A stretch of 36,984 bases of DNA from NCBI GenBank assembly GCA_913048065.1, contig CAJWVG010000009.1, positions 1 through 36,984 of the forward strand. Reading direction: 5' to 3'. The notes below the pieces were generated by a model that did not search any database, was not told where the DNA came from, and saw nothing but the letters and a program-made list of their open reading frames with translations. Within the stretch, counting starts at the first letter, position 1; every line of letters begins with the position of its first letter. Below are positions 4,664-36,437 of this stretch, in pieces. The position numbers were made by a program, and so were the translations under genes. Source of the stretch: an uncultured Gammaproteobacteria bacterium (lineage in GTDB: Bacteria; Pseudomonadota; Gammaproteobacteria; GCA-002705445; GCA-002716945).

Positions 4664-5698
4664 ATGATTATTAAGGATACAACATTGAAAATAGATAAAA
4701 AAACATTTATTATTGCTGAGGCGGGAGTTAACCATAATGGATCAATAGATATAGCAAAGCAAATGATTCATATCGCAAAAGAAGCAGGAGCAGATGCTGT
4801 TAAATTTCAAACATCAATTCCAGAAGACTTAGTTACTGATTACGCTAAAAAAGCAGACTATCAATACAAGCATACCATAAGAAATGAATCTCAACTTGAA
4901 ATGCTAAAAAGGATTCACTTACCATTAGATGATTACAAAATATTAAAGCGGGAGTGTGAAGATCAGGGTATAGAATTTATGTCAACGCCATTTGATTTAA
5001 AAAGTTTAGAATGTCTACATGAAATAGGAATGTATTATTATAAAATACCTTCTGGAGAGTTAACTAATTTACCATTAATAAGAGAAATTGCAAAGGTAGC
5101 TAAGAAAGTTATTCTCTCAACAGGAATGTCTAATCTAGATGAAATATCTGAGACAATTGATATATTAGTCAGCGGAGGTGTTTCAAAAAAAAGTATCTCG
5201 GTTTTGCATTGTAATACAGAATATCCTACTCCAATGAAAAATGTGAACCTAAACTCGATGCTAACCTTAGGCGAACAATTCAAAGTTAATATTGGCCTAT
5301 CTGATCATACACTTGGTATTGAGGTTCCAATTGCAGCAGTAGCAATGGGAGCTACTATTATCGAAAAACACTTTACAACAGATCAAACACTAGATGGCCC
5401 AGATCACAAAGCCAGTCTCAATCCAGAAGAATTAAAGAGCATGATTAAAGCGATTAGGAATATTGAAGCTGCTTTTGGTAATCATACTAAAGTACCTACA
5501 GAAGGGGAATTGAAAAATATTAATATTGCAAGAAAATCTATTGTTGCATCTTCAAATATTAGCAAGGGAGAGATTTTTACAATTGATAACCTTACCACTA
5601 AAAGGCCCGGTAACGGCATTTCTCCAATGATGTGGGATAAAATAATAGGTGAAAAATCAAATAAAGATTATTGTAAAAATGAGCTGATTGAGTTGTGA
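4664..5698 (+). CDS. legI: N-acetylneuraminate/legionaminate synthase family protein (NeuB/LegI)
   Basis: NeuB motifs 'FIIAEAGVNHNGS', 'DAVKFQT', 'STPFD', 'KIPSGELTN', 'STGMS', 'HCNTEYPTP', 'GLSDHTLG', 'EKHFTTD', plus C-terminal SAF domain. Confidence 0.9.
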   Translation: MIIKDTTLKIDKKTFIIAEAGVNHNGSIDIAKQMIHIAKEAGADAVKFQTSIPEDLVTDYAKKADYQYKHTIRNESQLEMLKRIHLPLDDYKILKRECEDQGIEFMSTPFDLKSLECLHEIGMYYYKIPSGELTNLPLIREIAKVAKKVILSTGMSNLDEISETIDILVSGGVSKKSISVLHCNTEYPTPMKNVNLNSMLTLGEQFKVNIGLSDHTLGIEVPIAAVAMGATIIEKHFTTDQTLDGPDHKASLNPEELKSMIKAIRNIEAAFGNHTKVPTEGELKNINIARKSIVASSNISKGEIFTIDNLTTKRPGNGISPMMWDKIIGEKSNKDYCKNELIEL

Positions 5699-6861
5699 AA
5701 AATAGAAAAATCTGTATAATTACTGGTTCGAGAGCAGAATATGGCTTATTAAAGCCATTAATCCATATTCTGAATATAGATTCAGAAATAGACTTGAAGA
5801 TTGTTGCTACGGGAATGCATTTAGACAAGAAATTTGGTCTTACTTTTAAGGATATAGAAAACGATGGATTTCATATTTATCGAAAGTGTGATATTTTACC
5901 CAAAACTAATTCACAGTCGTTTGTCCATGAGTCTATTGGAAAGGGAATTATAAAATTTTCAGATATTTTTTTAGAAATGAAACCTGATATAGTAGTTGTC
6001 CTGGGAGATAGATTTGAAATTTTTGCTGCAAGTATTGCTGCTTATTTTCTAAAAATTCCTATTGCACATATTCATGGAGGAGAAACAACAGAGGGGGCTT
6101 TTGATGAAGGTATTAGACATTCAATCACAAAGATGTCACACTTTCATTTTGTAGCTGCTGAAGAATATAAAAATCGCGTTATCCAATTAGGAGAAGATCC
6201 TGCAAGAGTCTTTATGAGTGGAGCCTTATTCGTTGATACTATTAAAAATACAAAGCTTTTATCCAGAAATGAGATTGAAAAAACAATGAATATCAATTTT
6301 AAAGAAAAAAATATTTTATTAACATATCATCCGGTCACTTTAGCAAATAACTCTTCTCAAAATTCGTTTAAAGCATTATTGAGTGTTTTAAATGAAAGAG
6401 CAGATATAAATATTATTTTTACTGGGCCAAATGCAGATCCAGGTAGTGATATTATACTTAAAATGATTAAGGATTTTATAAAGAAAAATAAAAATAGATC
6501 TGTATTCTTTACATCTATGGGGCACTTGAAGTATCTTTCATGTTTACAGTTTGTTGATGCGATGGTTGGAAATTCTTCAAGCGGTATTACTGAAGCACCA
6601 GCGCTTAGTATCCCTACAATTAATATAGGAGATCGACAAAAAGGTAGGATTCAAACACCAAGTATTATTAACTGTGAACCAACTTTATCATCAATTAATT
6701 CAGCTTTTGAATTACTATATAGTACCAAGTTTCAATCAAATCTTGTAGATATTTTTAATCCTTATGGTGGGGGAGAAGCTGGAAAAAAGATAGCTAATAA
6801 ATTGAAAGATATTAAATTACCAAAGAATATTAAAAAAACTTTTTTTGACTTAAAGATATAA
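5695..6861 (+). CDS. legG: UDP-GlcNAc 2-epimerase family, hydrolysing (NeuC/LegG-like)
   Basis: 'ITGSRAEYGLLKPL', 'LGDRFEIFAA', 'HIHGGETTEGAFDEGIRHSITKMSHFHF', 'GNSSSGITEAP'. GTG start overlaps neuB stop by 4 bp. Confidence 0.88.
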   Translation: MKNRKICIITGSRAEYGLLKPLIHILNIDSEIDLKIVATGMHLDKKFGLTFKDIENDGFHIYRKCDILPKTNSQSFVHESIGKGIIKFSDIFLEMKPDIVVVLGDRFEIFAASIAAYFLKIPIAHIHGGETTEGAFDEGIRHSITKMSHFHFVAAEEYKNRVIQLGEDPARVFMSGALFVDTIKNTKLLSRNEIEKTMNINFKEKNILLTYHPVTLANNSSQNSFKALLSVLNERADINIIFTGPNADPGSDIILKMIKDFIKKNKNRSVFFTSMGHLKYLSCLQFVDAMVGNSSSGITEAPALSIPTINIGDRQKGRIQTPSIINCEPTLSSINSAFELLYSTKFQSNLVDIFNPYGGGEAGKKIANKLKDIKLPKNIKKTFFDLKI

Positions 6862-6872
6862 AATTATTTAAA

Positions 6873-9004: not shown

Positions 9005-9043
9005 TCTATTTGTAAACAACCTATTTAAAACTAAATTCAAAAT

Positions 9044-10957: not shown

Positions 10958-10964
10958 CAGTGCA

Positions 10965-11714
10965 ATGAAGCTAGTCCTTCTCCGTCATGGTGAAAGTCAA
11001 TGGAACCTTGAAAATAAATTTACAGGTTGGAAAGATGTCTCATTAACACAAACCGGAATTGAAGAAGCAAAATTCTCAGGGAAGCAATTAGTTAAAGCTA
11101 ATATTAATATACAAAGTGTTTACACTTCTCTTTTGAACAGAGCAACTGAAACTACCGATATTGTCACCGATATTATAAATTTTTCTAAAAAAAATATTCA
11201 CTATGATTGGCGTTTAAATGAGAGACATTATGGGGCACTTCAAGGGCTAAATAAATCCGAGACAGCTGAAAAATATGGAGAAGAGCAAGTACAAATATGG
11301 AGAAGGAGTTATGATATTCCACCACCACCACTAAATGAAGATGATAAGCGACACCCAAGATTTGATAAAAAATTTGGTTCTATTGAATGTAAATTGCCAG
11401 CTGGTGAAAGTTTAAAAAATGTCATTAATCGCTTAAATCCGTTTTGGAATGAATATTTTACATATATAAGAAAAAACATGGGAAATCATTTAATTGTGGC
11501 TCATAGTAACTCTTTGAGAGCAATTGTAAAATTACTAGAAAACTTAACTGACAAAGACATTATAAAAGTAAATATACCTACAGGAATACCACTAGTATAC
11601 GAATTTGATCAAAATTTTAATATCTTAGATAAAAAATTTTTAATTGATCAAAATACTTTAAATTCAAAATTAGATGCTGTAGCTAAGCAGGGTAAAATAA
11701 AGGAAAAAAAATGA
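10965..11714 (+). CDS. gpmA: 2,3-bisphosphoglycerate-dependent phosphoglycerate mutase
   Basis: 'MKLVLLRHGESQWNLENKFTGWKDVSLTQTG', 'RLNERHYGALQGLNKSETAEKYGEEQVQIWRRSYDIPPPP', 'VAHSNSLRAIVK'. The family N-terminus places the start at 10965, not the ORF start 10938. Confidence 0.92.
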   Translation: MKLVLLRHGESQWNLENKFTGWKDVSLTQTGIEEAKFSGKQLVKANINIQSVYTSLLNRATETTDIVTDIINFSKKNIHYDWRLNERHYGALQGLNKSETAEKYGEEQVQIWRRSYDIPPPPLNEDDKRHPRFDKKFGSIECKLPAGESLKNVINRLNPFWNEYFTYIRKNMGNHLIVAHSNSLRAIVKLLENLTDKDIIKVNIPTGIPLVYEFDQNFNILDKKFLIDQNTLNSKLDAVAKQGKIKEKK

Positions 11715-12715
11715 ATAATTTTTGGAATAAACATGATGTGTTAATAACTGGAGCTGATGGTTTTATAGGAAGTCATTTAACTGAAAAGCTCGTTTCTTTG
11801 AATGCTAATGTAACTGCGCTTAGTTATTATAATTCAAGAGGTAGTAATGGATGGCTTGACAATGTATATGATAAAATACCCGATAATCTAATAGTTAAGC
11901 AAGGAGATATTCGAGACGCTCATTTCATTGACGGAATAATAGGCAATGCTACTACAGTTTTTCATTTAAGTAGCTTAATTGCAATTCCTTATAGTTATAC
12001 AGCTTATCAAAGCTATATAGACACTAATATTACGGGATTATCGAATTTACTGACATCTTGCAGAAGATACGATGTACAAAAAATAGTTCATACATCCACT
12101 AGTGAGGTATATGGATCTGCACTATATACGCCAATTGATGAAAAGCATCCCTTACAAGGACAATCTCCATATTCTGGATCAAAGATTGCAGCAGATGTGA
12201 TTGCAGACAGTTTTTTTAGATCATTTGATTTACCTATTACTACCGCAAGACCATTTAATACATATGGACCAAGACAATCATTAAGGGCTGTTATTCCAGC
12301 TGTAATACAGCAGTTAATAAATAAAGAAGATGGAAGCTTTTTAGATATTGGAGATATTACCCCAAAAAGAGATTTCAATTTTGTTTCTGATACAGTGGAT
12401 GGATTTTTATCTCTTGGAGAGGAAAAAAATGTTTTAGGTAAGGTTTATAATATAGGTTCTGGAGTGGATGTATCAATTAAAGAACTATGCGATATTTTGT
12501 TTGAAATTTCTGGTAAAAAGCTTGAATATAGAACTGATACTCAACGATTAAGACCAGATAAAAGTGAAGTAAATAGATTGTTATGTGATTCTTCACTTAT
12601 TAAGAAATCTACTGGATGGGAAAGTAAAATAGATTTATATGATGGCTTAAAAATAACTTATGATTGGTTTAAATCAAACTCTGACCAATATGGGAAAGAA
12701 ACTTTTTTACTTTGA
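11711..12715 (+). CDS. legB: LegB-type NDP-GlcNAc 4,6-dehydratase (SDR)
   Basis: 'VLITGADGFIGSHLTEKLV', 'SSLIAIPYSYTAYQSYIDTNITGL', 'TSTSEVYGSA', 'YSGSKIAAD', 'RPFNTYGPRQSLRAVIP'. Adjacent to LegC and LegF. Confidence 0.82.
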   Translation: MNNFWNKHDVLITGADGFIGSHLTEKLVSLNANVTALSYYNSRGSNGWLDNVYDKIPDNLIVKQGDIRDAHFIDGIIGNATTVFHLSSLIAIPYSYTAYQSYIDTNITGLSNLLTSCRRYDVQKIVHTSTSEVYGSALYTPIDEKHPLQGQSPYSGSKIAADVIADSFFRSFDLPITTARPFNTYGPRQSLRAVIPAVIQQLINKEDGSFLDIGDITPKRDFNFVSDTVDGFLSLGEEKNVLGKVYNIGSGVDVSIKELCDILFEISGKKLEYRTDTQRLRPDKSEVNRLLCDSSLIKKSTGWESKIDLYDGLKITYDWFKSNSDQYGKETFLL

Positions 12716-13848
12716 TGTCAATTCCTTTATCAATACCAAACTTAAGCGGAAATGAATTAAAATATGTTTCTGATTGTTTAAATTCCGAATGGGTTTCTAC
12801 AGAAGGTTCCTATGTTGAAAAATTTGCAGAAGCTACTCAAGAATACACAAAGGCAAAATATGCTATTCCATGTGTTAACGGTACTAGCGCACTTCAGACT
12901 TGTTTAAGATTAATAGATTTAAAGCCTGGAGAGGAAGTTATTATGCCCACCTTAACATTCATAGCGCCAGTAAATGCAGTAAGATATTTTTATGCAGACC
13001 CTATCTTTTTTGATTGTGATAATTTTTTTAACATAGATATAAATCAACTATATGATTTTTTAAAAAAAAATACATCATATAAAAATGGTAAGCTAATTAA
13101 CAATGTTACCGATAAGATTATAAGAGCCATTATTCCCGTTAATATTTTTGGCAATTCACTAGATATTGATGCCCTACTAGAAATCTCAGATCAATTCGAT
13201 ATACCGATTATAGAAGATGCATCTGAAGCTATTGGAACATTTTATAAAAAAAATAGGCATGCTGGGACTGCAGGTTTGATGGGTTGTCTATCTTTCAATG
13301 GTAATAAAATGATTACTACTGGGGGAGGAGGTATGATACTGACTAATGATAAAAAACTAGGTGAAAAAGCATCCTATCTTACAAGGCAGGCAAAAAATAA
13401 TAAGGTATTTTATGTTCATGATGAAGTCGGATATAACTTTAGACTTACCAATGTTGCAGCAGCAATAGGTTTAGCACAATTAGAACAGATTAATCAATTT
13501 CTTGAAATTAAAGAAAAAAATTTTGAGTTATACAAAAAAATAATGAATAATAAAAACTTTATTGATATTGTTTCTCCCCCAAGTTACGGTAAAAGTAATC
13601 ATTGGTTTTATGCAATAAAAATAAATAGAAACTACCACAGAAATATACCCCAGATTATAGATTTTCTTGAAAAAAATGGTGTTCAAGCAAGACCAATCTG
13701 GAAACTAAACCATACACAGAAACCTTATAAAGATTGTTTTCATGTTGATTTATCCAATGCAAATAATTTGTACGATAAAATATTTAATGTTCCTTGTAGT
13801 ACTAATTTGTCAGAAGAATCCATTATGACAGTTTGTGATTTACTATAA
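12712..13848 (+). CDS. legC: LegC-type PLP-dependent aminotransferase
   Basis: 'IPLSIPNLSGNELKYVSDCLNSEWVSTEGSYVEKFE..', 'VNGTSALQTCLRL', 'IIEDASEAIGT', Lys motif 'SFNGNKMITTGGGGMI'. Confidence 0.85.
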   Translation: MMSIPLSIPNLSGNELKYVSDCLNSEWVSTEGSYVEKFAEATQEYTKAKYAIPCVNGTSALQTCLRLIDLKPGEEVIMPTLTFIAPVNAVRYFYADPIFFDCDNFFNIDINQLYDFLKKNTSYKNGKLINNVTDKIIRAIIPVNIFGNSLDIDALLEISDQFDIPIIEDASEAIGTFYKKNRHAGTAGLMGCLSFNGNKMITTGGGGMILTNDKKLGEKASYLTRQAKNNKVFYVHDEVGYNFRLTNVAAAIGLAQLEQINQFLEIKEKNFELYKKIMNNKNFIDIVSPPSYGKSNHWFYAIKINRNYHRNIPQIIDFLEKNGVQARPIWKLNHTQKPYKDCFHVDLSNANNLYDKIFNVPCSTNLSEESIMTVCDLL

Positions 13849-13855
13849 CCTTTTT

Positions 13856-14533
13856 ATGATTCAAAATAAAAAAATTTTAGCTATAATACCCGCCAGAGAA
13901 AATTCAAAGCGAATAAAGAATAAGAATATTAAAATGTTTTGTGGAAAACCATTAATTCACTGGACAATAGATCAAGCTCTAAATTCTTTTATTATTGACA
14001 GAGTGATTGTTTCTACTGACTCAGATGTCATTAAAAAAATATCAATTGCAAGTGGGGCAGAAGTACCTTTTTTGAGACCAAAAAATCTTGCTCAAGATCA
14101 TTCGAGTACTAATGATTGTATTCTTCATTTGCTTAATAATCTTGAAGAGATTTATGATATAATTATATTGTTACAGCCAACATCTCCTCTAAGAAAAGAT
14201 TTTCATATTACTGATTCAATTGAGCATTTTACTAATTATGATAATATTGAATCATTAGTTAGCGTAAAAAAAAATACAAACCATATTTACGAAAAAAAAG
14301 ATTTGATATATAACCTGTTTGATAAAACTACACTTAATCTAAATGAAAAAACTGCGCCAAAATCCTTTTCTCCAAATGGATCAATTTATATATCTACCAG
14401 GCATCACTTTTTAACAAATAAAACCTTTTATACAAAAAAAACATACTTATATATTATGGATAGTAAGCATTCGGTAGATATAGATTATGATAAAGATTTT
14501 TTGTATGCTAAAAAGTTGTTTGAAAAGGTATAA
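13856..14533 (+). CDS. legF: CMP-nonulosonate (legionaminate-type) cytidylyltransferase (NeuA/LegF-like)
   Basis: 'ILAIIPARENSKRIKNKNIKMFCGKPLIHWTIDQAL', 'VSTDSDVIKKI', 'LLQPTSPLR', 'SPNGSIYIS', 'HSVDIDYDKDF'. ATG at 13856 fits the family N-terminus. Confidence 0.87.
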   Translation: MIQNKKILAIIPARENSKRIKNKNIKMFCGKPLIHWTIDQALNSFIIDRVIVSTDSDVIKKISIASGAEVPFLRPKNLAQDHSSTNDCILHLLNNLEEIYDIIILLQPTSPLRKDFHITDSIEHFTNYDNIESLVSVKKNTNHIYEKKDLIYNLFDKTTLNLNEKTAPKSFSPNGSIYISTRHHFLTNKTFYTKKTYLYIMDSKHSVDIDYDKDFLYAKKLFEKV

Positions 14534-14540
14534 AACTATA

Positions 14541-19087: not shown

Positions 19088-19933
19088 ATGAATAGCATTA
19101 ATATAGGAATTATTGGTTTAGGCTATGTTGGTAAGGCATGTGAATCTATATTTAGTAACTTTTTCAATACATATACATTTGATATTAATGGCAGTGGTTC
19201 TGAAAATTCACTAAAAACATTAGTAGGTAAGGTGGACATCTTATTCATATGTGTACCTACTCCAATGAATGCTGACGGTTCATGTAATTTAGAGATTGTT
19301 GAAACAGTTTTAACTGATATTAATGATTGTAAGAATAGTATTTGTATCATTAAATCAACCATTACTCCAGGTTCTTCTACATATTTTGAAAAGAAATTTA
19401 AAAATCTCAAAATCTATTTTAATCCTGAATTTCTCACAGAAGCTAATTTCATCGAAGATTTTAAGAATCAAACTCAAATTATAATTGGATCATCAGATAA
19501 GAACTTTAATTTGATTGAAAAGATATATCAACTGTCCCTGCCTAATGCTAAAATTATTAAATGTAATTTTGAAGAGGCTGAGATGGTTAAATATTTCATC
19601 AATACTTTTCTTGCTGTCAAAGTAAGTTATGCAAATGAATTATTTAATCTTTGTAATAAGATGAATATTGACTATAAAAAAGTATCCGAAATAGCACAAC
19701 ATGATGACAGGTTAGGGAGTTCACATTTTAAAGTTCCTGGGCCAGATGGCAAATTTGGTTTTGGAGGATCTTGTTTCCCAAAAGATATAAATTCTCTTAT
19801 TGATATTTTTAATAAAAAAGGAGTAAAGTCTTATGTCTTAAAAGCTGCTTGGGATAGGAATACTAATGAAGATAGAATAAATAGAGATTGGGAGCAGTTA
19901 ATAGGAAGAGCCGTGGTTAAAAATGATGAATAA
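19088..19933 (+). CDS. Short UDP-glucose/GDP-mannose dehydrogenase-family protein lacking the C-terminal UDP-binding domain
   Basis: 'IGIIGLGYVGKA', 'CVPTPMNADGS', 'STITPGS', 'NPEFLTEANFIEDF', 'EAEMVKYFINTFLAVKVSYANEL', catalytic Cys 'GFGGSCFPKDI'. Only 281 aa. Confidence 0.82.
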   Translation: MNSINIGIIGLGYVGKACESIFSNFFNTYTFDINGSGSENSLKTLVGKVDILFICVPTPMNADGSCNLEIVETVLTDINDCKNSICIIKSTITPGSSTYFEKKFKNLKIYFNPEFLTEANFIEDFKNQTQIIIGSSDKNFNLIEKIYQLSLPNAKIIKCNFEEAEMVKYFINTFLAVKVSYANELFNLCNKMNIDYKKVSEIAQHDDRLGSSHFKVPGPDGKFGFGGSCFPKDINSLIDIFNKKGVKSYVLKAAWDRNTNEDRINRDWEQLIGRAVVKNDE

Positions 19934-20390
19934 AAAATATAGAATTTTATGGCTAACAGGCCAACCTGGATCAGGTAAAACAACGCTATCTAATGCGATT
20001 ATAAAAATAATATCTAATAATGAAAAGTTTGCTAACATCAAAACCATGCAAATTGATGGAGATGATCTTAGAGATTTAACAGATAATAAAGACTATTCTG
20101 AAAAAGGAAGAAGAGAAAATATTAGTTTGAGCCAAAAGATTGCTTTCTTTTGTCAAAATAAAGGATACTTTGTCATTGTTTCACTTGTTGCCCCATATCT
20201 TGATTTGAGAGAAAGTTTTAAAAAGAAAACTGAAGTTTGTGAAGTATATTTACATACAACAGAAAATAGAGGAAAGGAAAAATATTTTTCATCTGATTAT
20301 GAAAAACCTTTAGACAATTTCCTGAACTTGGATACAACCAACAAAACAATCGAGGATACGGCGAATGAGATACTCTCTTTTTATTGGTAG
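19923..20390 (+). CDS. Adenylylsulfate-kinase-like (CysC-like) small-molecule kinase
   Basis: Walker A 'LWLTGQPGSGKTTLS', 'IDGDDLRDLT', 'YSEKGRRENI', 'VSLVAPYLDLRESF'. Confidence 0.75.
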   Translation: MMNKKYRILWLTGQPGSGKTTLSNAIIKIISNNEKFANIKTMQIDGDDLRDLTDNKDYSEKGRRENISLSQKIAFFCQNKGYFVIVSLVAPYLDLRESFKKKTEVCEVYLHTTENRGKEKYFSSDYEKPLDNFLNLDTTNKTIEDTANEILSFYW

Positions 20391-20703
20391 ATGGCAACCA
20401 TGGCATGATGGCCATCGATGGCTTATCGATCAACAATTAAATAAAGGCAAAAAGGTATGCATTGCGATAAGAGACATGCCAAAAGATAAAAATAACCCTT
20501 TCTCCCCAAATGAAATTAAAGAAAATCTCGAAAATGAATTGAGTAGTTTAATTCAAAATGGTTCCGTGAAAGTAATTGTCATACCTGATATAGAATCTGT
20601 AAATTATGGAAGAGGTGTAGGTTATGATATTATTGAACACGTACCTCCAGAAAAAATAAAAAGAATATCTGCAACTAAGATTAGGGAAAAGATGAATGCT
20701 TGA
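20365..20703 (+). CDS. Small HxGH-type nucleotidyltransferase
   Basis: 'SLFIGRWQPWHDGHRWLIDQQL' (HxGH) and C-terminal 'RISATKIREKM' (SxTxxR). 112 aa; overlaps the kinase ORF by 26 bp. Confidence 0.8.
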   Translation: MRYSLFIGRWQPWHDGHRWLIDQQLNKGKKVCIAIRDMPKDKNNPFSPNEIKENLENELSSLIQNGSVKVIVIPDIESVNYGRGVGYDIIEHVPPEKIKRISATKIREKMNA

Positions 20704-21661: not shown

Positions 21662-21674
21662 TTTTAGACCTTCA

Positions 21675-22718
21675 ATGAATAATAAAACCAAATATAAAAA
21701 AAATATTATTAAATCTGATGAAAGAGTAATTGATGTTCTTAATAAGCTAGATCTTCTAGATATTAAAACTTTATTAGTAAATCATAATAGCCGGTATTTA
21801 GGTAGTATAACAGACGGTGATATTAGAAGAGGACTTTTGAAAAATTTTGCCTTAGAAGATCCTATTAAAAATTTCACAAATAAAAATTCCAGAATCGTTA
21901 ATTATAGTGATTATATAAGTAAAAATTATAACAATATAGCTGGGCTAGATCTAATACCGGTAATAAAATCGGGTAAAATTTTTGATTTGATTATAAATGA
22001 AAAATTTGATCATTCTTCAGATTATCAAGCAAGTATTGAAGAGTTATGTGAGGTAGTTATTATGGCAGGTGGAAAAGGCACTAGAATGCAACCCTTAACT
22101 AACCTAATCCCTAAACCTCTTATACCCTATAAAGACAAAACCTTAATTGAGCATGTTATGCATAATTTTACGAAGTTTCAGAAAAGTGATTTCATTGTAT
22201 CTGTAAATTATAAAGCTGATCTAATAATAGATCATTTGTCTAAAAATGAAGCTATATCTGTTAAAAAATATTTATATGAAGATTTTCCGATGGGTACTAT
22301 TGGTGCAGTGCATCAATTAGAAAATGAGGTTGACAAACCTATTTTCATTTGTAATTGCGATTCGTTAATTAATATAAATTTTCATAATATGTATGAGTTT
22401 CACAATAAAAATAATTTTGATTTTACTATAGCTGCATGTAAAGATATTATTGATATACCATATGGAGTTTGTGCTATAAATGAAGATTTTAGCCTTGCAA
22501 GCATGACCGAAAAACCTCAGATAAATCATTTGGTTAATTCTGGTCTTTATCTTATGAATACTAATGTATTAAAATTAATTCCTAAAGATAAAAAATATAA
22601 TGCAACAGATTTGATTAGTGATTGTTCCAATCATGGTCTGTCAGTAGGTGTTTATCCGTTTAGTAAGGAATCATGGCTTGATATTGGTTTATTGAGCGAC
22701 TACTTAGCAATATTATAA
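21675..22718 (+). CDS. CBS-domain + sugar-1-phosphate nucleotidyltransferase (PtmE-like, glucosamine-1-P guanylyltransferase candidate)
   Basis: N-terminal CBS-like 'YLGSITDGDIRRGLL', then 'VVIMAGGKGTRMQPLTNLIPKPLIPYKDKTLIEHVM', 'FICNCDSL', 'TEKPQINHLVNSGLYLMN'. Confidence 0.83.
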   Translation: MNNKTKYKKNIIKSDERVIDVLNKLDLLDIKTLLVNHNSRYLGSITDGDIRRGLLKNFALEDPIKNFTNKNSRIVNYSDYISKNYNNIAGLDLIPVIKSGKIFDLIINEKFDHSSDYQASIEELCEVVIMAGGKGTRMQPLTNLIPKPLIPYKDKTLIEHVMHNFTKFQKSDFIVSVNYKADLIIDHLSKNEAISVKKYLYEDFPMGTIGAVHQLENEVDKPIFICNCDSLININFHNMYEFHNKNNFDFTIAACKDIIDIPYGVCAINEDFSLASMTEKPQINHLVNSGLYLMNTNVLKLIPKDKKYNATDLISDCSNHGLSVGVYPFSKESWLDIGLLSDYLAIL

Positions 22719-22727
22719 GTATCAATA

Positions 22728-23882
22728 ATGAGTTTTTTATCTCAATTAATTCTTCTATTAATTATCGTTTCTCTTGGATTTAACTATAGCATTATACCAG
22801 GTTATATCTATTTATCTAATATTATATCTGCTATTATTTCATTGATTCTTTTTTCTCAGTTAAAAGTTTCCCAGATTATTGACGAAAGAAGAAATATCAC
22901 AGTATTAGCATTTCTTATATTTTATATTTTATTGAACCTTAGTTCATTTGAAGGAATAAAATGGATTTATTTATTTATAATGTATTATTCATTTTCAATT
23001 TACTTTAGGTATTTAAATCCTTCCATCAATCATATTCTATCGGCGTATTTAATAGGAATTTTTTTGGGAACTATTTTTTCATTTCAATTTGTTGATATTT
23101 CGTTATTAGGTTATAATGTTCTGTCTAATGAATCTAGAGGTTCAATTGATGCTCTTGGTGGATTTAATACTTTTGGTCTTTTAGCAGCAATTGCAATAAT
23201 AATTGCAATTCATTTTCAAAATATATATAAAAACATCACTATAAGAATACTGCTATGTATTCCAATTATTTTTTTATTGTATGCGGAGATTTCCACTTTA
23301 TCGAGAGGTGGATTCTTAACAATGATAGCGGCTTTATTTTTTTATAATTTGTTTAATAATTCAATTAAAGTTTTTTTTGGATTCATGCTAGTAGCACTTG
23401 TAGCAATATCTTTAATTTCACAGACTATTGATATTAGAAATTTATTAGATAGATATCTTTTTTATGATGATTTGACAGGAAGTGGAAGGACAGAATTATG
23501 GGCATATGTTTTAAGCATAATGAATAATCCTATAAATATACTTTTTGGGTACGGAGCAGGACCATTAAATATTGATACTAACGTTATGACTGGATCATCT
23601 ATAGCAATATATGCTGAGAGCGCTCATAATACATACTTAGAAATCTTTTATCAGTTTGGTATTCTTGGACTTTCTTTTTTTCTGATATTCCTTTTCAATA
23701 TATCAACCTCTTTGGAAAAAATCAAAGACAGTAAAGATAAAATGATATTAAAAACTATCTTTTTTGCACTTTTATGTAGTATGTTTTTTGACTCATACTT
23801 TTTTTCATTGCAGGTAGCTGCAGTTTTTTCTCTTTTTTATGCAACATTTAATTATGGCGGGTTAGATGAAAAATTTATCTAA
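22728..23882 (+). CDS. O-antigen polymerase/ligase-like (Wzy) membrane protein
   Basis: Polytopic; Wzy_C-like 'LSRGGFLTMIAALFF', 'GSGRTELWAYVLSIMNNPINILFGYGAGPLN...SAHNTYLEIFYQFGILGLSFF'. Confidence 0.8.
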   Translation: MSFLSQLILLLIIVSLGFNYSIIPGYIYLSNIISAIISLILFSQLKVSQIIDERRNITVLAFLIFYILLNLSSFEGIKWIYLFIMYYSFSIYFRYLNPSINHILSAYLIGIFLGTIFSFQFVDISLLGYNVLSNESRGSIDALGGFNTFGLLAAIAIIIAIHFQNIYKNITIRILLCIPIIFLLYAEISTLSRGGFLTMIAALFFYNLFNNSIKVFFGFMLVALVAISLISQTIDIRNLLDRYLFYDDLTGSGRTELWAYVLSIMNNPINILFGYGAGPLNIDTNVMTGSSIAIYAESAHNTYLEIFYQFGILGLSFFLIFLFNISTSLEKIKDSKDKMILKTIFFALLCSMFFDSYFFSLQVAAVFSLFYATFNYGGLDEKFI

Positions 23883-25086
23883 ATTAACATTTTACACAAT
23901 TTTAATTAGAGTTATTAACCTATCCCTAAGACTATCCTTAATAGTGATTCTAGGAAAGTTTTATTCATTAGAATTTGTTGGAATCTATGGCTTAATTTTA
24001 GCTTTAGTGGGTATTTGTGTACAAATGATACCATTTGAATTTTATAGTTATACTACTTTAGAAATATTAGAAAAAAATGAAATGAGCACTAATAAAGTGT
24101 TAGCAAATCATTTCTTTTTTATTTTTTTAATGGGCTGTATTTGTTCCCCAATTTTTTATGCTACCTATGGATACTTCAGTTTAGATTACAGCTTATTTTT
24201 TTATATATCTTTTGTGCTCGTTTTTGAAATTTTAGCCAGAGAGCTGTCTAGAGTATTAGTTGCATTAGAGCATCCAATAGCTACATATATTATAGCTTCA
24301 ATTCATTCATCTCTGTGGATTTTTGTTATAATCATTGGTTTATTTCAAGACAAACTTTTTTCAATAGAAGAAGTATTAGTGCTATGGGGATCTTCTGGAA
24401 TTATTGCCGCTATTACGGGTTTATATTTTGTTAAACAGAAGGTATCTGATAAAATTTTTCACTTTAACTTTCTTTCAATAGATTGGATTAAAAATGGAAT
24501 ATTTTTCACTTTCCCTCTTTTGATTGGTAGCTTAAGTCATGCAATGAACCAATACGTAGGAAGATTTTTTTTAGGTAACAATATATCTTTAAGCGATATT
24601 AGTGTATTCACAATTTATTTTCAAATATCTGCACTGGTATTAATTACAGTTGAAGTTTTACAAAATATTTATATCCCGACTTATGTTAGAAATAATTCAA
24701 TGAAAAAAAGTAATAATAATTATGAATATGCGATGCTTATTATTATAGCTTTTATAGCACTAATTATTACGTTTCTCCAGGAGCGGATTTTTATATTTAT
24801 AAACCCTGAACTACTAAATGATTTAGATACTATGCATATGCTATTGTTAGCAATGTCAGCGCTATCTTTCGCTGCGGTTTTAAGAAACAGACTTTATGTT
24901 AAGCGATTAAAGTACAAGATCATGTACTCTTATTTTATTGCTATGATTGTGTCATTGATAGGTAATTCTGTGTTTGTGCCTAGGTATGGAGCTTATGGAT
25001 CTGCCAGTACAATGTTTATTTCAGGCCTATTTTTGTGCCTATCTATATACTTATTTGATAAATTTAATAGACCTAAAATAGTATGA
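23866..25086 (+). CDS. Polysaccharide flippase (Wzx/PST-like)
   Basis: Polytopic, 406 aa; position between Wzy and GTs; C-terminal 'FVPRYGAYGSASTMFISGLFLCLSIYLF' typical of Wzx. Confidence 0.78.
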   Translation: MKNLSKLTFYTILIRVINLSLRLSLIVILGKFYSLEFVGIYGLILALVGICVQMIPFEFYSYTTLEILEKNEMSTNKVLANHFFFIFLMGCICSPIFYATYGYFSLDYSLFFYISFVLVFEILARELSRVLVALEHPIATYIIASIHSSLWIFVIIIGLFQDKLFSIEEVLVLWGSSGIIAAITGLYFVKQKVSDKIFHFNFLSIDWIKNGIFFTFPLLIGSLSHAMNQYVGRFFLGNNISLSDISVFTIYFQISALVLITVEVLQNIYIPTYVRNNSMKKSNNNYEYAMLIIIAFIALIITFLQERIFIFINPELLNDLDTMHMLLLAMSALSFAAVLRNRLYVKRLKYKIMYSYFIAMIVSLIGNSVFVPRYGAYGSASTMFISGLFLCLSIYLFDKFNRPKIV

Positions 25087-26195
25087 ATAATAAGTATCTA
25101 CATTTATTTATTTATTTAGAAAATAAAAGTGATGACAAGTATTTTGGTATCAAAAAACAATTATCTGATCAATCACATCTTTTAGAAAATATTGTATTAA
25201 CTGATAAATCTCAGACTATTTTTAATAAGGTTGAATATAGTAGCAGGAAGCTCTTACGTGAATTTTTTTATAAAGATGTTTTTAAGGAACTTGAAACAAA
25301 AATAATATCTAGAATAGAAAGCAATAAAAACAGTCGTCATATATTCATTTATACTCTTGATGAAGGTGTATGGTCTGAGTTTATCAGATTTCTGATAAAA
25401 AAATATAACATTAATGATGTAAAGTTTATAAATGTTCAACATGGCTTTCTGCTCAATTACAAAAAGAATTCTTTAAGAACAAAAATTATTAAGCTAATAA
25501 ATAATTTTTATATCACTTTTTTTGGATTTCCAAAGTTTGGAATTGGACCATTTCATGGGCCTTTTGACCATTATTTATTATTTCATGATGAACAAAGAAA
25601 ACTTGTAATTCCTAGTGCAAAAAGTATATCATGTCCAAATCTAATTTATAGATCTTTTATTGATAAATTTCTAGAGATTAACAAAAGCAATTACGATAAA
25701 AAATCAGTATTGATTGCTTTACAATATTTTGTAAAATTTGGTTCTACTTCAGTTGAAATGCTTGATTTCGAAAAGACACTATTAAGCATAAAACCATTAA
25801 TAAAAACATTAAACATTAATTTTAAATATAAAGTTTTTTTAAGAAGACATCCGAATATGGATAAAAATGAATTTTCTAAAATATTGTCAAAAGTAAATCT
25901 AAAAAAATATATTATTGTAGATACACTCCCTATTAATGAAAGTATTTATAGGTCTCCAGTAATTTTTTCATTGTTTTCTACCACACTTTTTGAAGCTAAG
26001 TTAGTAGGTAGGACACCAGTTGTAATTGATAATAAATCTTTTAATATGAATCTTTTTCCAATAAAATTTCAAAGTATAAATTTAGATAAAGATATTAATC
26101 AACAATTAGAGAAAATCTTAAATACTCACCAAGTCATTAGAAATTATAATGATGAAATTAATTGGAAAGAAATCGTAGAGCATTATTTTGACTAA
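25083..26195 (+). CDS. Candidate nonulosonic-acid (sialyl/legionaminyl) transferase, GT-B-like
   Basis: Motifs in sialyltransferase order: 'YTLDEGVW' (D/E-D/E-G, residues 93-95), 'FLRRHPNMDKNEF' (HP, residues 256-257), 'SLFSTTLFEA' (S/T motif). 'VQHGFLL' also present. Confidence 0.5.
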   Translation: MNNKYLHLFIYLENKSDDKYFGIKKQLSDQSHLLENIVLTDKSQTIFNKVEYSSRKLLREFFYKDVFKELETKIISRIESNKNSRHIFIYTLDEGVWSEFIRFLIKKYNINDVKFINVQHGFLLNYKKNSLRTKIIKLINNFYITFFGFPKFGIGPFHGPFDHYLLFHDEQRKLVIPSAKSISCPNLIYRSFIDKFLEINKSNYDKKSVLIALQYFVKFGSTSVEMLDFEKTLLSIKPLIKTLNINFKYKVFLRRHPNMDKNEFSKILSKVNLKKYIIVDTLPINESIYRSPVIFSLFSTTLFEAKLVGRTPVVIDNKSFNMNLFPIKFQSINLDKDINQQLEKILNTHQVIRNYNDEINWKEIVEHYFD

Positions 26196-27357
26196 TTATA
26201 GTAAAAATAGCATTTGTTTTTTTTATGACGCTGATTATCCAAGTAATCAGGCTGGCGGCGAGAAAAGATTATTTATGATCGCAAAAGAGGCAATGAAAAG
26301 AGGATCAGATGTCAAATGGGTTTGTTTCAATTTCTGGGGAAAAAGTTCATTTTCTCATAATGAACTGGGAATTGAGCATATAGGAGTCATTTCAAAGCCT
26401 AATTTTTATAACAAAGATGGTAATCGTAACAAAAAAGAACCTATTCTATATTTAATGAATTGTTTTCTATCTATACCTTATTTTCTTAATTCAAAAGTTT
26501 GGGTCATTGGTCAATGGCCAATGATTCATATTATCCCATTAATTTTGCTAGGATCATTATTGAGAAAACAAATCTATGTCGAATGGTGGGAGACTCTTGA
26601 GAAACAATGGCTTAAAAGAGGAATTATTGGCCAGTTGGGAAGTATAATTGAATATCTCACACTCAAAATGTCTTCATTGATACCTTTTGTAGTTGATTGT
26701 GAGAGTGAAAGAGAGTTATTGTTAAGCAAAAATTCTTTTGCCAAAGTAATGGTTGTGCCAAATGGAGTCAATATTGACTTATTTCCAAAAAGTGATAGTC
26801 AATATAAGTTTGATTTTGTTTCAATGGCTAGATTAAAAAATCATAAAAGAGTCGACTTGCTTATAAGTGCAACCAGAAAATTTATTGATGAAACAGGCGA
26901 TGATGATATCCAAGTGGCAATAATTGGTGAGGGCCCAGAAAAGAAAAAGCTTTTAAACTTAGTAGACAGTCTAAATCTCCAGAGCAATATTACGTTTTTT
27001 GGTTTTATTGAAGATTATAAAGCCGCAGTATCAATTTTACAATCTTCAAAAGTTGGGATTTTAACAACAGTTGCTGGAGGTAAAGGAAGTGTTTTAATTT
27101 CTGAGCTTTTCGCTTCAGGATTGCCCGTTTTAGCGATAGGATGCGATGAAGGTATTGATCCTAGGTATATTCAAAAAGGAGTAAATGGATATATGACTCA
27201 AAGTATTTCAAGTAATGAGCTAGCGGAATTAATGATTAAAATTGTTTCAGATAATAAGAAACTAATACTTATGAAAAATAAACTATCAGAACAAAAACAA
27301 GACTTAGATTGGAGTGTATCACTTGAAAACCATCCAATACTTAATATTGGTAATTAA
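26188..27357 (+). CDS. GT4-like (GT-B) glycosyltransferase
   Basis: 'YPSNQAGGEKRLFMIAKEAMKRG', 'VVPNGVNIDLFP', 'FVSMARLKNHKRVDLLISA', 'VAIIGEGPEKKKLLNLVDSLNLQSNITFFGFI', 'SELFASGLPVLAI'. TTG start. Confidence 0.85.
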   Translation: MTNYSKNSICFFYDADYPSNQAGGEKRLFMIAKEAMKRGSDVKWVCFNFWGKSSFSHNELGIEHIGVISKPNFYNKDGNRNKKEPILYLMNCFLSIPYFLNSKVWVIGQWPMIHIIPLILLGSLLRKQIYVEWWETLEKQWLKRGIIGQLGSIIEYLTLKMSSLIPFVVDCESERELLLSKNSFAKVMVVPNGVNIDLFPKSDSQYKFDFVSMARLKNHKRVDLLISATRKFIDETGDDDIQVAIIGEGPEKKKLLNLVDSLNLQSNITFFGFIEDYKAAVSILQSSKVGILTTVAGGKGSVLISELFASGLPVLAIGCDEGIDPRYIQKGVNGYMTQSISSNELAELMIKIVSDNKKLILMKNKLSEQKQDLDWSVSLENHPILNIGN

Positions 27358-27419
27358 TAATTTATTAGCTAGTTTTCAAAATGATAGTCCTGCTATAAAA
27401 ATTAAATAATATAAAAATC

Positions 27420-28655
27420 ATGAAAAAAATTAAAAAAAATTTATCACCCACTCTTGTAGTAGAACACAATTGTTGTCGATTGTGTGGATCATCCAATTTA
27501 GAGCCAGTAATTTCATTGGGTAGTCAATATATCAACGATTTTCCAGAAAAAATTAATATAGGAAAAGGGGTTAAGGCTCCATTGGAGATAGTACATTGTT
27601 CCAATTGTGATTTAGCTCAATTAAAACATACTGCTCCTCAGGAACTGTTATATTCAAGACAATATTGGTATAGATCTGGGGTAACAGAAACAATGCAAAG
27701 AGAATTAAAAGATATTGTAACTGAATTACAGGATTTTGTAGCTTTAAAAGAAGATGATATTGTTTTAGACATAGGCGCAAATGATGGAACTATGTTGAAA
27801 TACTTTTCTGATGATTTAATTAAAATTGGCTGTGAACCTGCAAATAATCTTATCGATGAATTATCTAAAAATTGTGATAGAGTAATACATGATTTTTGGT
27901 CAGAAGAGATATACTTAGATAGCGTAAAAGATTTGAATGGTAAAAAAGCAAAAGTTGTTACAGCCATAGGAATGTTTTATGATCTCGATGATCCGGTAGC
28001 TTTTGTTTCTGATATCGAAAAAGTCTTAGATGACGATGGTATTTTTATTGCTCAGCTTATGACGTTAGCACCAATGCTAGAAAAAAATGATTTAGGTAAT
28101 ATTTGCCATGAACATATAGAGTTTTATTCTTATAAGTCTTTAGTGTATATGTATGAAAAATGTGGTCTTGAAATTACAAGAGTTACCGAGAATAGTGTTA
28201 ATGGTGGCAGTTATAGAATCTATGCAAGAAAGCTTAAAGAAGGATCAATTGATTATTCAGAAAATGCTTCTAAGCAAGATTTAATAAATTTTCAAAACAG
28301 GATAGATAGTATTAAAACTGAATGTATTAATTTCATGAAAGAAGTAAAGAAGCAAGGTAAAACAATACATGTATATGGTGCATCAACAAAAGGTAATGTC
28401 ATTTTACAGTACTTTGGCTTGAATACAGATCTAATTGATTATGCGTCCGAAAGAAGCCCAGAAAAAGTTGGTCGCTTTACAGTTGGTTCCTGGATTCCTA
28501 TTATTTCTGAACAAGAAAGTAGAAATATGAAGCCAGACTACTATTTTGTATTACCCTGGGCTTTTTTTGATGAAATGTATGCCAGGGAAGTAGATTGGAG
28601 AGATTCAGGTGGAAAGTTTATAGTCCCATTTCCAGAATTTAGAGTAGTAGATTGA
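27420..28655 (+). CDS. SAM-dependent sugar C-methyltransferase (zinc-binding N-terminus + methyltransferase + C-terminal domain)
   Basis: 'CCRLCGSSNLEPVISLGSQYINDFP', 'CSNCDLAQLKHT', 'VLDIGANDGTMLKYF', 'NICHEHIEFYSYKSL', 'HVYGASTKGNVILQYFGL'. Confidence 0.85.
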   Translation: MKKIKKNLSPTLVVEHNCCRLCGSSNLEPVISLGSQYINDFPEKINIGKGVKAPLEIVHCSNCDLAQLKHTAPQELLYSRQYWYRSGVTETMQRELKDIVTELQDFVALKEDDIVLDIGANDGTMLKYFSDDLIKIGCEPANNLIDELSKNCDRVIHDFWSEEIYLDSVKDLNGKKAKVVTAIGMFYDLDDPVAFVSDIEKVLDDDGIFIAQLMTLAPMLEKNDLGNICHEHIEFYSYKSLVYMYEKCGLEITRVTENSVNGGSYRIYARKLKEGSIDYSENASKQDLINFQNRIDSIKTECINFMKEVKKQGKTIHVYGASTKGNVILQYFGLNTDLIDYASERSPEKVGRFTVGSWIPIISEQESRNMKPDYYFVLPWAFFDEMYAREVDWRDSGGKFIVPFPEFRVVD

Positions 28656-29083
28656 GTTTTATAAATAAATCTCTTTATCAACAAATCATTAAGTCTGTTC
28701 CAATTCTTTGCATTGACTTAATAGTCATACATAAAAAAAAATATTTACTTATTAAAAGAAATGAAAATCCCTTAAAAAATGAATGGTGGGTTCCCGGTGG
28801 CAGAGTTTTATCAGGCGAAACAATAGAAGAAACTGCAAAAAGAAAATTAGAGCAAGAGGTAGGAATTAAAATCGATACTGGTATGCAAATACATGCAATA
28901 TATGAAGACTTTTTTGATGAGTCATCTATGGGTTCACATCTTTATCACACACTATCAATAGTATTTAAAATCACAATTGATAATATTGATAATATAAAGC
29001 TAGATTCTACTAGCAAAAGATGGGCATTAAAAAATAATTTACCCACTAGATTTGAATCAAAGTTGGAGGTTTTAAATGGTTAA
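28652..29083 (+). CDS. Nudix-fold GDP-mannose mannosyl hydrolase (GDPMH/Gmm)-like protein
   Basis: 'EWWVPGGRVLSGETIEETAKRKLEQEVGI' degenerate Nudix box; 'YEDFFDESSMGSHLYHTLSIVFKI' aligns with the GDPMH region. TTG start overlapping the previous stop. Confidence 0.75.
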   Translation: MSFINKSLYQQIIKSVPILCIDLIVIHKKKYLLIKRNENPLKNEWWVPGGRVLSGETIEETAKRKLEQEVGIKIDTGMQIHAIYEDFFDESSMGSHLYHTLSIVFKITIDNIDNIKLDSTSKRWALKNNLPTRFESKLEVLNG

Positions 29084-30471: not shown

Positions 30472-30493
30472 AAAGAGAGATATATTAATAAAG

Positions 30494-33355: not shown

Positions 33356-33376
33356 TAAACTTTTTAAGGAGATTTT

Positions 33377-33925
33377 ATGCTTGATTTAAAAAAATATTTA
33401 GACTCATATAAAGATTTAATTTTGAGTGATTCTTGTGAAAGTAAATTATTTGATATTCAAGAATTAATTTTAAAGTCACGCGGTTCAAGGATTTTTGTTT
33501 TTGGCAATGGTGGAAGTGCATCAATAGCAGACCATTTTGCTGTAGATATGACCAAAAATGCTGGAGTTCCTACTCTATCGATGAATAGCAGTTCAATGAT
33601 AACTTGTTTAGCTAATGATTATGGATATGAAAATTGGATGCAAAAATGCCTAGAGTATCACGCCTCATCTAATGATTTTGTCTTTTTAATTAGCTCAAGT
33701 GGACAATCTAAAAATGTATTAAACGCATGTAATTATGCAAATAATGAAGATATTACCTCAATAACTTTTACTGGTTTTAAAACAGATAATCCTTTACGTA
33801 GAGCCGGAAAAATTAACTTTTGGGCTGATTCCAAATCCTATAATATTGTCGAGAATATTCATCAAATATGGATTTTAAGTCTTGTTGATTTAATTATTGG
33901 GAAGTCAGAGTATTCCGCTTCATGA
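33377..33925 (+). CDS. gmhA: SIS-domain sedoheptulose-7-phosphate isomerase (GmhA-like)
   Basis: 'RIFVFGNGGSASIADHFAVDMTKN', 'VFLISSSGQSKNVLNACNYA'. AAGGAG Shine-Dalgarno at 33366-33371. Confidence 0.82.
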   Translation: MLDLKKYLDSYKDLILSDSCESKLFDIQELILKSRGSRIFVFGNGGSASIADHFAVDMTKNAGVPTLSMNSSSMITCLANDYGYENWMQKCLEYHASSNDFVFLISSSGQSKNVLNACNYANNEDITSITFTGFKTDNPLRRAGKINFWADSKSYNIVENIHQIWILSLVDLIIGKSEYSAS

Positions 33926-34530
33926 TTTTAAAGGTAATTTTTGATTTTATTATATCAATTATAGGATTGATTTTATTGCTACCTTTTTTAGCATTAATGT
34001 CAATAGCAATATTATTTGAATCAGGCTTTCCAATTCTGCATAGAAGGGAAGTTCATTCTTCTTCTTCTAAAACTTTTAACTTCTATAAATTTAGAACAAT
34101 GTACAAAGACGCAGACAAAAGATTAGAAATACTCTTAAAAAATAATCCCGAAATAAAATTAGAATATGAAACATATTATAAATTAAAAAATGATCCTAGA
34201 ATCACAAAGTTAGGTAATATATTAAGACAGTTAAGTTTAGATGAACTACCACAACTATTAAATGTGGTATTTTTACAGATGTCTTTAGTAGGACCAAGGC
34301 CAAAAACTACATTCGAGTTAAATAAATATTTTGATAAAAAAGATCATCAATTACTCTTCAGCGTTAAACCTGGAATAACATGTATTTGGCAAATTTCTGG
34401 TAGATCTAATATTGATTATGCTCAAAGAGTAGAAATGGATTTAGACTATGCAAAAAATAGAAGCTTTATTATGGATATGAAAATTTTATTTGAAACCCCA
34501 ATTGCTTTATTGAAAAAGGATGCTGTTTAA
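33922..34530 (+). CDS. PglC-like monotopic phosphoglycosyltransferase (undecaprenyl-P sugar phosphotransferase)
   Basis: 'FNFYKFRTMYKDAD', 'NDPRITKLGNILRQLSLDELPQLLNVVFLQMSLVGPRPKT', 'KPGITCIWQISGRSN'. Only 202 aa. Confidence 0.88.
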   Translation: MILKVIFDFIISIIGLILLLPFLALMSIAILFESGFPILHRREVHSSSSKTFNFYKFRTMYKDADKRLEILLKNNPEIKLEYETYYKLKNDPRITKLGNILRQLSLDELPQLLNVVFLQMSLVGPRPKTTFELNKYFDKKDHQLLFSVKPGITCIWQISGRSNIDYAQRVEMDLDYAKNRSFIMDMKILFETPIALLKKDAV

Positions 34531-34533
34531 AAA

Positions 34534-35487
34534 ATGAATATTTTGGTTACAGGAGGCGCTGGTTACATAGGAAAGGCTTTCATTAATAAATATTTTGAAA
34601 ATTTTGATAAAATATTTGTCATTGATAATCTTTATGATAGTTTTAATAAAGATTTTCCTGAAAATGTTATTTTTTTTGAATCAAACTTCGGAAATAAATC
34701 AGTTTTAGAAAAAGTATTTAATAATAATATTGATTGCGTATTTCATTTTGCAGCCTATGCAAGAATCGGTGAATCAAATTCTAATCCAAGTCCTTTCTTT
34801 GATAACAATGTAAAACAAATGATTATGCTATTAGATGTAATGAATGATTATAATTGTAAAAAAATTATTTTTTCATCTTCAGCATCTGTTTTTGGTAATC
34901 CAACAACTATTCCTGTTGATGAGAATCATCCAAAACTGCCAATTAGCTCATATGGTGAAACTAAATTAATGGGAGAAAAGATTTTAGAATGGTACCATAA
35001 AGCATATAAAATAAATAGTATCTCTCTTCGTTATTTTAACGCTGCCGGTGCTTTTGGAGATTTTGGTGAACAAAGAAAGCATGAAACGCATATCCTGCCA
35101 TTAATCTTTAAATCAATTAGAGAAAAAAAAGTTTTTAATATTTTTGGTAATGATTATAAAACTAAGGACGGTACATGTGTGCGCGACTATATTCACGTTG
35201 AAGATTTAGTTGATGCTCATATGCTGGCATTTTCTAATTTAGATAAAATTAAATTTGATGCTTTTAATTTAGGTTCTGAGTACGGAGTATCAAACTTGGA
35301 GCTTATTAAGCTAATCTCAGATTTATTGAACGTAGAACCAAATTATGAATTTCAAAGTAGAAGGTATGGTGATCCTGATGAGCTAATAGCTTCCTCTGTT
35401 CGTGCAAAAAAGTACTTGAATTGGAATCATAAACATTCAATTACTGATATTGTTCAATCGCTAATAAAATACTATAATGCCAAATGA
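34534..35487 (+). CDS. galE: UDP-glucose 4-epimerase-like SDR
   Basis: 'ILVTGGAGYIGKAF', 'HFAAYARIGESNSNP', 'FSSSASVFGNP', 'YGETKLMGEKIL', 'RYFNAAGAF', 'DGTCVRDYIHVEDLVDAH'. Confidence 0.85.
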   Translation: MNILVTGGAGYIGKAFINKYFENFDKIFVIDNLYDSFNKDFPENVIFFESNFGNKSVLEKVFNNNIDCVFHFAAYARIGESNSNPSPFFDNNVKQMIMLLDVMNDYNCKKIIFSSSASVFGNPTTIPVDENHPKLPISSYGETKLMGEKILEWYHKAYKINSISLRYFNAAGAFGDFGEQRKHETHILPLIFKSIREKKVFNIFGNDYKTKDGTCVRDYIHVEDLVDAHMLAFSNLDKIKFDAFNLGSEYGVSNLELIKLISDLLNVEPNYEFQSRRYGDPDELIASSVRAKKYLNWNHKHSITDIVQSLIKYYNAK

Positions 35488-36437
35488 TAATTTCTAGAAC
35501 CCCTTTAAGAGTTTCATTTGTAGGTGGGGGCACTGACATGAAATATTTCTATAAACAAACACCTGGCAGTGTTATATCTATGGCCATTGATAAATATATA
35601 TATATTATAGTAAAAAAAAGATATGATAAGAATATTGTTTTAAACTATAGCGAAAGAGAAATTGTTTCTTCTGTAAAAGAAATTAAGCACACCTTAATTA
35701 AGGCATGTCTAGACATGGTTGATATTAAAGATTCTATTGAAATCACCTCAATAGCTGATATTCCATCTCAAGGCTCTGGACTAGGCTCTTCTAGTACATT
35801 TACAGTAGGACTTTTGAATGCTCTATTTACACTAAAAGGGGAGAATCTAGATCAAGAAGAGTTGGCTAGATTAGCATGTAAAATTGAAATTGATATTTGT
35901 AATGCACCTATTGGAAAACAAGATCAATATGGCGCTAGCATTGGAGGATTAAAAAAGATTACTTTTCAATCAAATGAAGATGTTAAAATAGAAATTATTG
36001 CGGATAATAATAACCTTTATAGGAATCTAGAGAATCAACTTATTATAGTGAATTCTAATATTGTGCGATCTGCTTCAGAGATATTAGAAAAGCAGAAGAA
36101 AAATATTTCAACAAATATTGATAGATTAAAGTTTTTTCCTGCTTTAGTTGATCAATTTGAAGAATACCTTAATAATCAATCTTTTGAAGCAATATATGCA
36201 CAACTAGATCATTACTGGAAAGAGAAGAAAACGTTAGTACAGTCTTCTGTTAAGAAAGATTTAGAGAAGATATACGACTTTCACGTACCTGAATATTGCC
36301 ATTCTGGAAAAATATGTGGGGCAGGAGGTGGAGGATATTTTATGTTCTTCAAAAAAGAAGATAATGGTTTAAATTTAAAAGAATATTTTGATGTGAAGAT
36401 TGATAGATCTGGATCAGTTATTATATATAATAACTGA
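35484..36437 (+). CDS. hddA: GHMP kinase, D-glycero-D-manno-heptose 7-phosphate kinase (HddA)-like
   Basis: 'ISRTPLRVSFVGGGTDM', 'IPSQGSGLGSSSTFTVGLLNAL', 'GKQDQYGASIGG', 'KICGAGGGGYFMFF'. Confidence 0.82.
   Translation: MIISRTPLRVSFVGGGTDMKYFYKQTPGSVISMAIDKYIYIIVKKRYDKNIVLNYSEREIVSSVKEIKHTLIKACLDMVDIKDSIEITSIADIPSQGSGLGSSSTFTVGLLNALFTLKGENLDQEELARLACKIEIDICNAPIGKQDQYGASIGGLKKITFQSNEDVKIEIIADNNNLYRNLENQLIIVNSNIVRSASEILEKQKKNISTNIDRLKFFPALVDQFEEYLNNQSFEAIYAQLDHYWKEKKTLVQSSVKKDLEKIYDFHVPEYCHSGKICGAGGGGYFMFFKKEDNGLNLKEYFDVKIDRSGSVIIYNN

Follow-up and report, generated by a model that had tools for sequence, protein, structure and literature searches.

P0001, a divergent candidate GT-B transferase encoded within a Wzx/Wzy polysaccharide operon of an uncultured gammaproteobacterium

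A polysaccharide operon and a separate nonulosonate operon

The window analysed here, meaning the whole stretch of 36,984 nucleotides, contains a Wzx/Wzy polysaccharide operon spanning positions 19088-36437. Within this operon, a 370-aa orphan protein and putative GT-B transferase, P0001, is encoded on the plus strand at 25083..26195, as described from its ORF, its translation, a TIGR04326-like profile, AlphaFold and Foldseek. The ORF starts at ATG, has a 4-bp overlap with the stop of the Wzx-like gene upstream and one of 8 bp with the gene that follows, and lies, co-translated, between the flippase (Wzx-like) and GT4 genes. The upstream neighbour (23866..25086, +; 406 aa) is without a Pfam match and is a putative Wzx-type flippase, an assignment made from its repeated hydrophobic segments and its position. 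The Wzy/O-antigen ligase-type polymerase is encoded at 22728..23882 (+; Pfam PF04932), the GT4-type glycosyltransferase co-translated 3' of P0001 at 26188..27357 (+; PF00534), and an initiating phosphoglycosyltransferase (bacterial sugar transferase) at 33922..34530 (+; PF02397). A Wzz-like gene is also present. At 23.5% G+C, the P0001 gene is below both its operon (28.5%) and the window (29.7%).

The sugar genes of the operon include a nucleotidyltransferase gene resembling HddC/guanylyltransferases (21675..22718, +), two Gmd-like dehydratase genes (29076-31543), and a group at 33377..36437 (+) in which SIS-domain (GmhA-like), GalE-like and HddA-like genes accompany that of the initiating transferase. 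Since GmhA-, HddA-, HddC- and Gmd-like genes are all present, GDP-heptose-type donors are likely in this operon, whose sugar genes point towards GDP- and away from CMP-donors. At the operon head (19088..20703, +), three overlapping genes encode a 281-aa UGD-like dehydrogenase whose match is confined to the NAD-binding and central domains, an APS-kinase-like protein and a nucleotidyltransferase-like protein of 112 aa; together they possibly lead to a nucleotide-activated donor of an unusual kind.

A separate operon (4664-15446) contains NeuB-, NeuC-type, LegB-like, LegC and CMP-nonulosonate synthetase genes, and three minus-strand genes separate it from the operon of P0001. The NeuB/LegI-type synthase and NeuC/LegG-type epimerase genes (4664..6861, +) match TIGR03569 and TIGR03568, both above cut-off. 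At 11711..14533 (+), the LegB-like gene matches TIGR04180 with 413 bits, under the cut-off of 475, the LegC gene matches TIGR04181 over its cut-off, and the CMP-nonulosonate synthetase gene (PseF/LegF-like) matches PF02348 and, under cut-off, TIGR03584. No glycosyltransferase gene was recognised within 4664-15446. Two genes are interleaved with those of LegB, LegC and the CMP-nonulosonate synthetase: a full-length phosphoglycerate-mutase gene at 10938-11714, which scores over the NF010713 cut-off, and an HldE-kinase-like one at 14487-15446. On the minus strand at 1516-4529, alongside the NeuB gene, a fused E1-type dehydrogenase (643 aa) adjoins a fusion of biotin/lipoyl and PglD-type acyltransferase domains, and these proteins might produce an acyl group of an unusual kind and pass it on. 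The source genome has two more NeuB loci on contigs C8 and C14 (L115-L117), one of which, on C8, lies within an open frame of 642 aa. Contig C8 also carries a TagF-like gene (L041, C8:23508-24548).

Sequence motifs and distant homologues of P0001

Several short motifs can be located in P0001, all encoded on the plus strand: DEG (codons 93-95, nt 25359..25367), in a loop after predicted strand 86-92, with LDEG beginning at codon 92; QHG (codons 119-121, nt 25437..25445), in a loop after predicted strand 113-118 that would be the equivalent of the TagF WHG loop; RRHP (codons 254-257, nt 25842..25853), a (K/R)xHP nucleotide-binding motif with HP at 256-257 (nt 25848-25853); and FSTTLFEA (codons 298-305, nt 25974..25997), a putative S/T phosphate-binding turn with E304. 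The positions of DEG, HP and FSTTLFEA (near codon 300) in the sequence agree with those of the original prediction, which had read them as the motif order of bacterial sialyltransferases; QHG is a further motif, absent from its list. When P0001 was shuffled 20,000 times, a loose D/E-D/E-G...HP...S/T-S/T pattern turned up in 0.26% of the shuffles, and it is present in 13 of 464 ORFs (300-450 aa) from the polysaccharide regions of relatives, so that the order of the motifs, taken loosely, is weak evidence on its own. A stricter pattern, requiring (K/R)xHP and a following E, was found in none of the 20,000 shuffles and none of the 464 ORFs, this form having been written after the sequence was seen.

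The view that P0001 resembles no common GT family was borne out by profile searches. Hmmscan against Pfam-A returned no family at E<=10, PADLOC gave no match and PHROG no meaningful match, and the only NCBIfam match was to TIGR04326 (O_ant_LIC13510), at E=0.029 and 12.7 bits, under the curated cut-off of 250 bits. P0001 shares with TIGR04326 the order of a (D/E)N...W loop, an xHx loop, (K/R)xHP and S/T...EA...G, whereas TIGR04326 proteins are ~600 aa long with an extra N-terminal half, and P0001 is a stand-alone 370-aa module. No paper on TIGR04326 turned up in the literature collection searched. Close relatives of P0001 were found neither in two genome-collection scans and two viral-contig scans, nor in phage and plasmid records, nor in 186 related genomes. 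Searching 369 genomes of the class gave weak matches only, and the ORFs read were unrelated except for L012, which shares just the S/T-turn stretch. More distant relatives include L198, which is likewise stand-alone, and L201 (L201:49-1977:+), a 643-aa TIGR04326-like protein from a genome of the same family, in which ENG, QHG, KxHP and STT follow the order of P0001.

A profile was constructed from the C-terminal halves of seven TIGR04326-like loci, with P0001 left out. It scores P0001 at 26.5 bits, against 3.1 bits for the best of 2000 shuffles, which rules out chance motif order as the whole explanation. The match runs over two colinear segments, with 5.2 bits for 70-127 and 19.4 bits for 236-332. 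Among 729 reported ORFs, P0001 was the best non-member, ranked directly after the seven members, and behind it came L032 (a weak TIGR04326 match), a TagF-like locus and KpsC loci. By hhalign, the C-terminal segment of P0001 scored 37.8 against the TIGR04326-like set (shuffle maximum 24.0), and the margins were narrower for TagF-like sets. The profile of a 12-row alignment, searched against the PDB, placed Bcs3 at the top (E=0.0037), with the aligned stretch within its CroT domain, and also matched KpsC (E=0.016-0.023) and KrkA; adding TagF-like rows improved Bcs3 to 2.3e-6, a gain that is partly circular. The N-terminal half is weakly anchored, segment 70-127 contributing so few bits and the MAFFT register of DEG and QHG being lost in some runs that were untrimmed or trimmed another way. 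The HP-S/T half of the motif set is, as judged by sequence comparison, backed by homology, and P0001 is most likely a very divergent stand-alone member of the superfamily that includes TIGR04326, TagF-like enzymes, KpsC and the bacterial polysialyltransferases, among which are the makers of capsules, teichoic acids and polysialic acid. Membership of GT38, GT52 or GT80, the sialyltransferase families invoked in the original prediction, found no such backing: Pfam-A gave no match (PF07388 and PF07922 included), and hhalign against PF07388 (GT38-type; three poor loci only) was no better than shuffles. GT52 members were looked for in 143 genomes, and none was found.

Conserved residues and predicted fold

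In alignment A5, the R254 column is K/R and the H256 column is H in all 11 relatives, and S299-T300 are also conserved among aligned relatives. The column of H120, within QHG, is H in 10 of 11 relatives (A5) and in 15 of 16 (A6). At DEG, all 11 A5 relatives have D or E in the D93 column, N predominates in the E94 column and G95 is not kept; D93 falls on the acid that the TIGR04326 relatives conserve in their (D/E)N...WE motif, the register of the first two motifs being dependent on trimming in some MAFFT runs. This column conservation marks HP and S/T as family features, while DEG would be the form that a (D/E)N loop takes in this one protein; of the motifs expected to be kept in homologues, HP and S/T are indeed conserved in the aligned relatives and only the first acid of DEG appears to be retained.

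In sialyltransferases of the GT38/GT52/GT80 type, the D/E-D/E-G motif carries a catalytic second acid and an essential glycine on the base-bearing loop. In MhPST, strand 5 and helix 5a are joined by the loop that bears the catalytic E153 (PMC5517516), and H96 of the CroT domain of Bcs3 is on loop 4, after strand 5 (PMC10299916). The spacing from this loop to HP is 138 in MhPST (E153-H291), 137 in Bcs3 CroT (H96-H233) and 140 in TagF (H444-H584), and for QHG of P0001 it is 136. From DEG to HP the spacing in P0001 is 163, a value that taken by itself would recall GT80 PmST1 (170); as PmST1 has ~50 extra residues there (Freiberger et al., PMC2169525), spacing alone cannot discard DEG. When the spacing is weighed alongside the Bcs3 alignment and the two predicted strands (86-92 and 113-118), QHG is more likely the equivalent of the base loop, and QHG (119-121) appears to occupy the catalytic-base loop position in P0001. 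The assignment of DEG as the sialyltransferase D/E-D/E-G motif is therefore probably wrong, since the homologues read (D/E)-N-x there and conserve H120 of QHG instead.

AlphaFold modelling of P0001 alone (single sequence) gave a pLDDT of 38. With the 12-row alignment A5, pLDDT rose to 57 and pTM was 0.54, with the C-terminal core (231-310) at 70-90 and residues 1-64 below 50. Foldseek with the A5 model returned polysialyltransferase 5wcn as the top match (E=9.9e-9; also 5wc6), followed by epimerases, KrkA, TagF and others, with TM-scores of about 0.25-0.42 for all matches. This ranking is soft, given the low pLDDT of residues 1-64, the low TM-scores and the mixing in of epimerases and other GT-B enzymes, and the model is not independent of the profile evidence, having been built on the same alignment. 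Among viral predicted structures, the matches were mostly glycosyltransferases, with no informative relative among them. We assign P0001 a GT-B fold with moderate confidence; in this respect the model, with 5wcn as its top match, resembles the GT-B sialyltransferases as originally predicted. P0001 has in common with MhPST (GT38; 5wcn) the predicted GT-B fold, the HP motif and the S/T pair, but the D/E-D/E-G loop is apparently replaced by QHG at the same topological place, and there is no sequence match.

Proposed reaction and candidate donors

P0001 is probably a GT-B transferase of the cytoplasm, adding a single residue to the lipid-linked repeat unit from which a Wzx/Wzy surface polysaccharide is assembled. 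In the proposed mechanism, its C-terminal Rossmann domain would bind the donor nucleotide and the acceptor would come in from the N-terminal domain. By analogy, the base of the nucleotide would lie next to R254, its phosphate next to H256 and S299/T300, and its ribose next to E304. In the QHG loop, H120 would act as base or as phosphate ligand, possibly aided by D93. The (K/R)xHP motif binds cytosine and phosphate in sialyl- and Kdo-transferases (PMC12887879; PMC5517516), and its description as the CMP-binding motif of these enzymes (PMC12887879) favours a cytidine-type donor for P0001.

KpsC, WbbB and KrkA (GT107/GT99/GT140) have the GT-B fold predicted for P0001 and the (K/R)xHP cytidine-type site in common with it, their profile matches being weak. 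TagF-like phosphotransferases use CDP-glycerol or CDP-ribitol, and KpsC uses CMP-Kdo. A retaining ulosonate transferase of the KpsC, WbbB and KrkA kind would accord with this superfamily kinship, with KpsC and KrkA among the PDB profile matches and with KrkA among the Foldseek matches. However, the QxxxD nucleophile motif, which is present upstream of HP throughout the fetched PF05159 (KpsC-family) control loci, occurs nowhere in P0001, and the YE motif is missing as well. The retaining Kdo-type mechanism is thus disfavoured and the corresponding assignment is highly improbable. Lacking QxxxD as its nucleophile, P0001 would transfer by single displacement.

The motif order of P0001 also recalls the TagF-like enzymes (PF04464; Bcs3 CroT), with which it shares the HG loop, (K/R)xHP and S-S/T-x-x-x-D/E at a similar spacing (HG-HP 136 versus 137-140). 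Their WHG and HP histidines and SSxxxD appear in P0001 in a variant form (H120, H256, S299-T300-xxx-E304), with Q for W, T for S and E for D; the counterparts in CgoT are H479/G480, R607/H609 and S647/S648/D652 (PMC11666461). P0001 could then be a phosphotransferase moving a sugar-1-phosphate or polyol-phosphate and leaving a phosphodiester in the repeat unit. Besides the best PDB profile match being Bcs3 CroT, this would be in keeping with the small nucleotidyltransferase-like and kinase-like genes in the operon, and with the QHG variant reported in TagF-like hexose-phosphate transferases (PMC11666461). However, QHG is also carried by L028, L198 and L201, which are without assigned chemistry, PF04464 fails to detect P0001, TIGR04326-like proteins are closer, and the CDP-glycerol/CDP-ribitol synthase family was not recognised within the window. 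We consider such a phosphotransferase unlikely.

An ordinary NDP-sugar glycosyltransferase using a GDP-heptose-derived sugar would find its donor in its own operon, where the HddA-, HddC-, GmhA- and Gmd-like genes lie together with P0001. Those donors could nevertheless be consumed by the GT4 enzyme and the initiating transferase, and (K/R)xHP with S/T is a cytidine-type site in characterised relatives, which makes this assignment doubtful.

The original prediction had P0001 transfer the CMP-nonulosonate made by the LegF pathway. As a GT38/GT52-like legionaminyl (nonulosonate) transferase, it would use the product of genes 4664-14533, a specific-donor version of the transferase function favoured above. 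The CMP-nonulosonate pathway is encoded in the window in an operon lacking a recognised transferase, of the transferases noted there P0001 alone combines (K/R)xHP with S/T, a site common to CMP-using transferases, and a polysialyltransferase is its closest Foldseek match. On the other hand, the D/E-D/E-G triad is not kept in distant homologues, QHG appearing in its place, sialyltransferase families are without a sequence match to P0001, and the nonulosonate genes belong to a different operon. In addition, no P0001 homologue was found in the fetched polysaccharide regions of related genomes, where NeuB, LegB and CMP-synthetase homologues are common. This last argument is weak: Wzy, the flippase, GT4 and several other genes of the P0001 operon are likewise without homologues in those regions, and as most of the operon is variable or missing from relatives, the absence of P0001 says little about its donor. 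We regard the legionaminyl assignment in its GT38/GT52-like form as tentative and less likely than not. A CMP-nonulosonate is the leading single donor candidate for P0001, with a likelihood that we place well below one half. That P0001 founds a family of inverting nonulosonate (legionaminyl) transferases, with the QHG histidine instead of the D/E-D/E-G acid and linking TagF-like and sialyltransferase chemistry, seems quite unlikely.

To our knowledge, the identified transferases for legionaminic acid and its relatives are few. The GT-B superfamily around TagF, KpsC and the polysialyltransferases keeps giving new CAZy families, such as GT118 and GT140 (PMC12887879). P0001 and its uncharacterised TIGR04326 relatives appear to share a donor site and to have a histidine loop where sialyltransferases have an acid. 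Finding the donor of P0001 or of a TIGR04326 relative would give an unassigned branch a function, and the activity of P0001 would tell whether the histidine loop accompanies phosphotransfer or sugar transfer.
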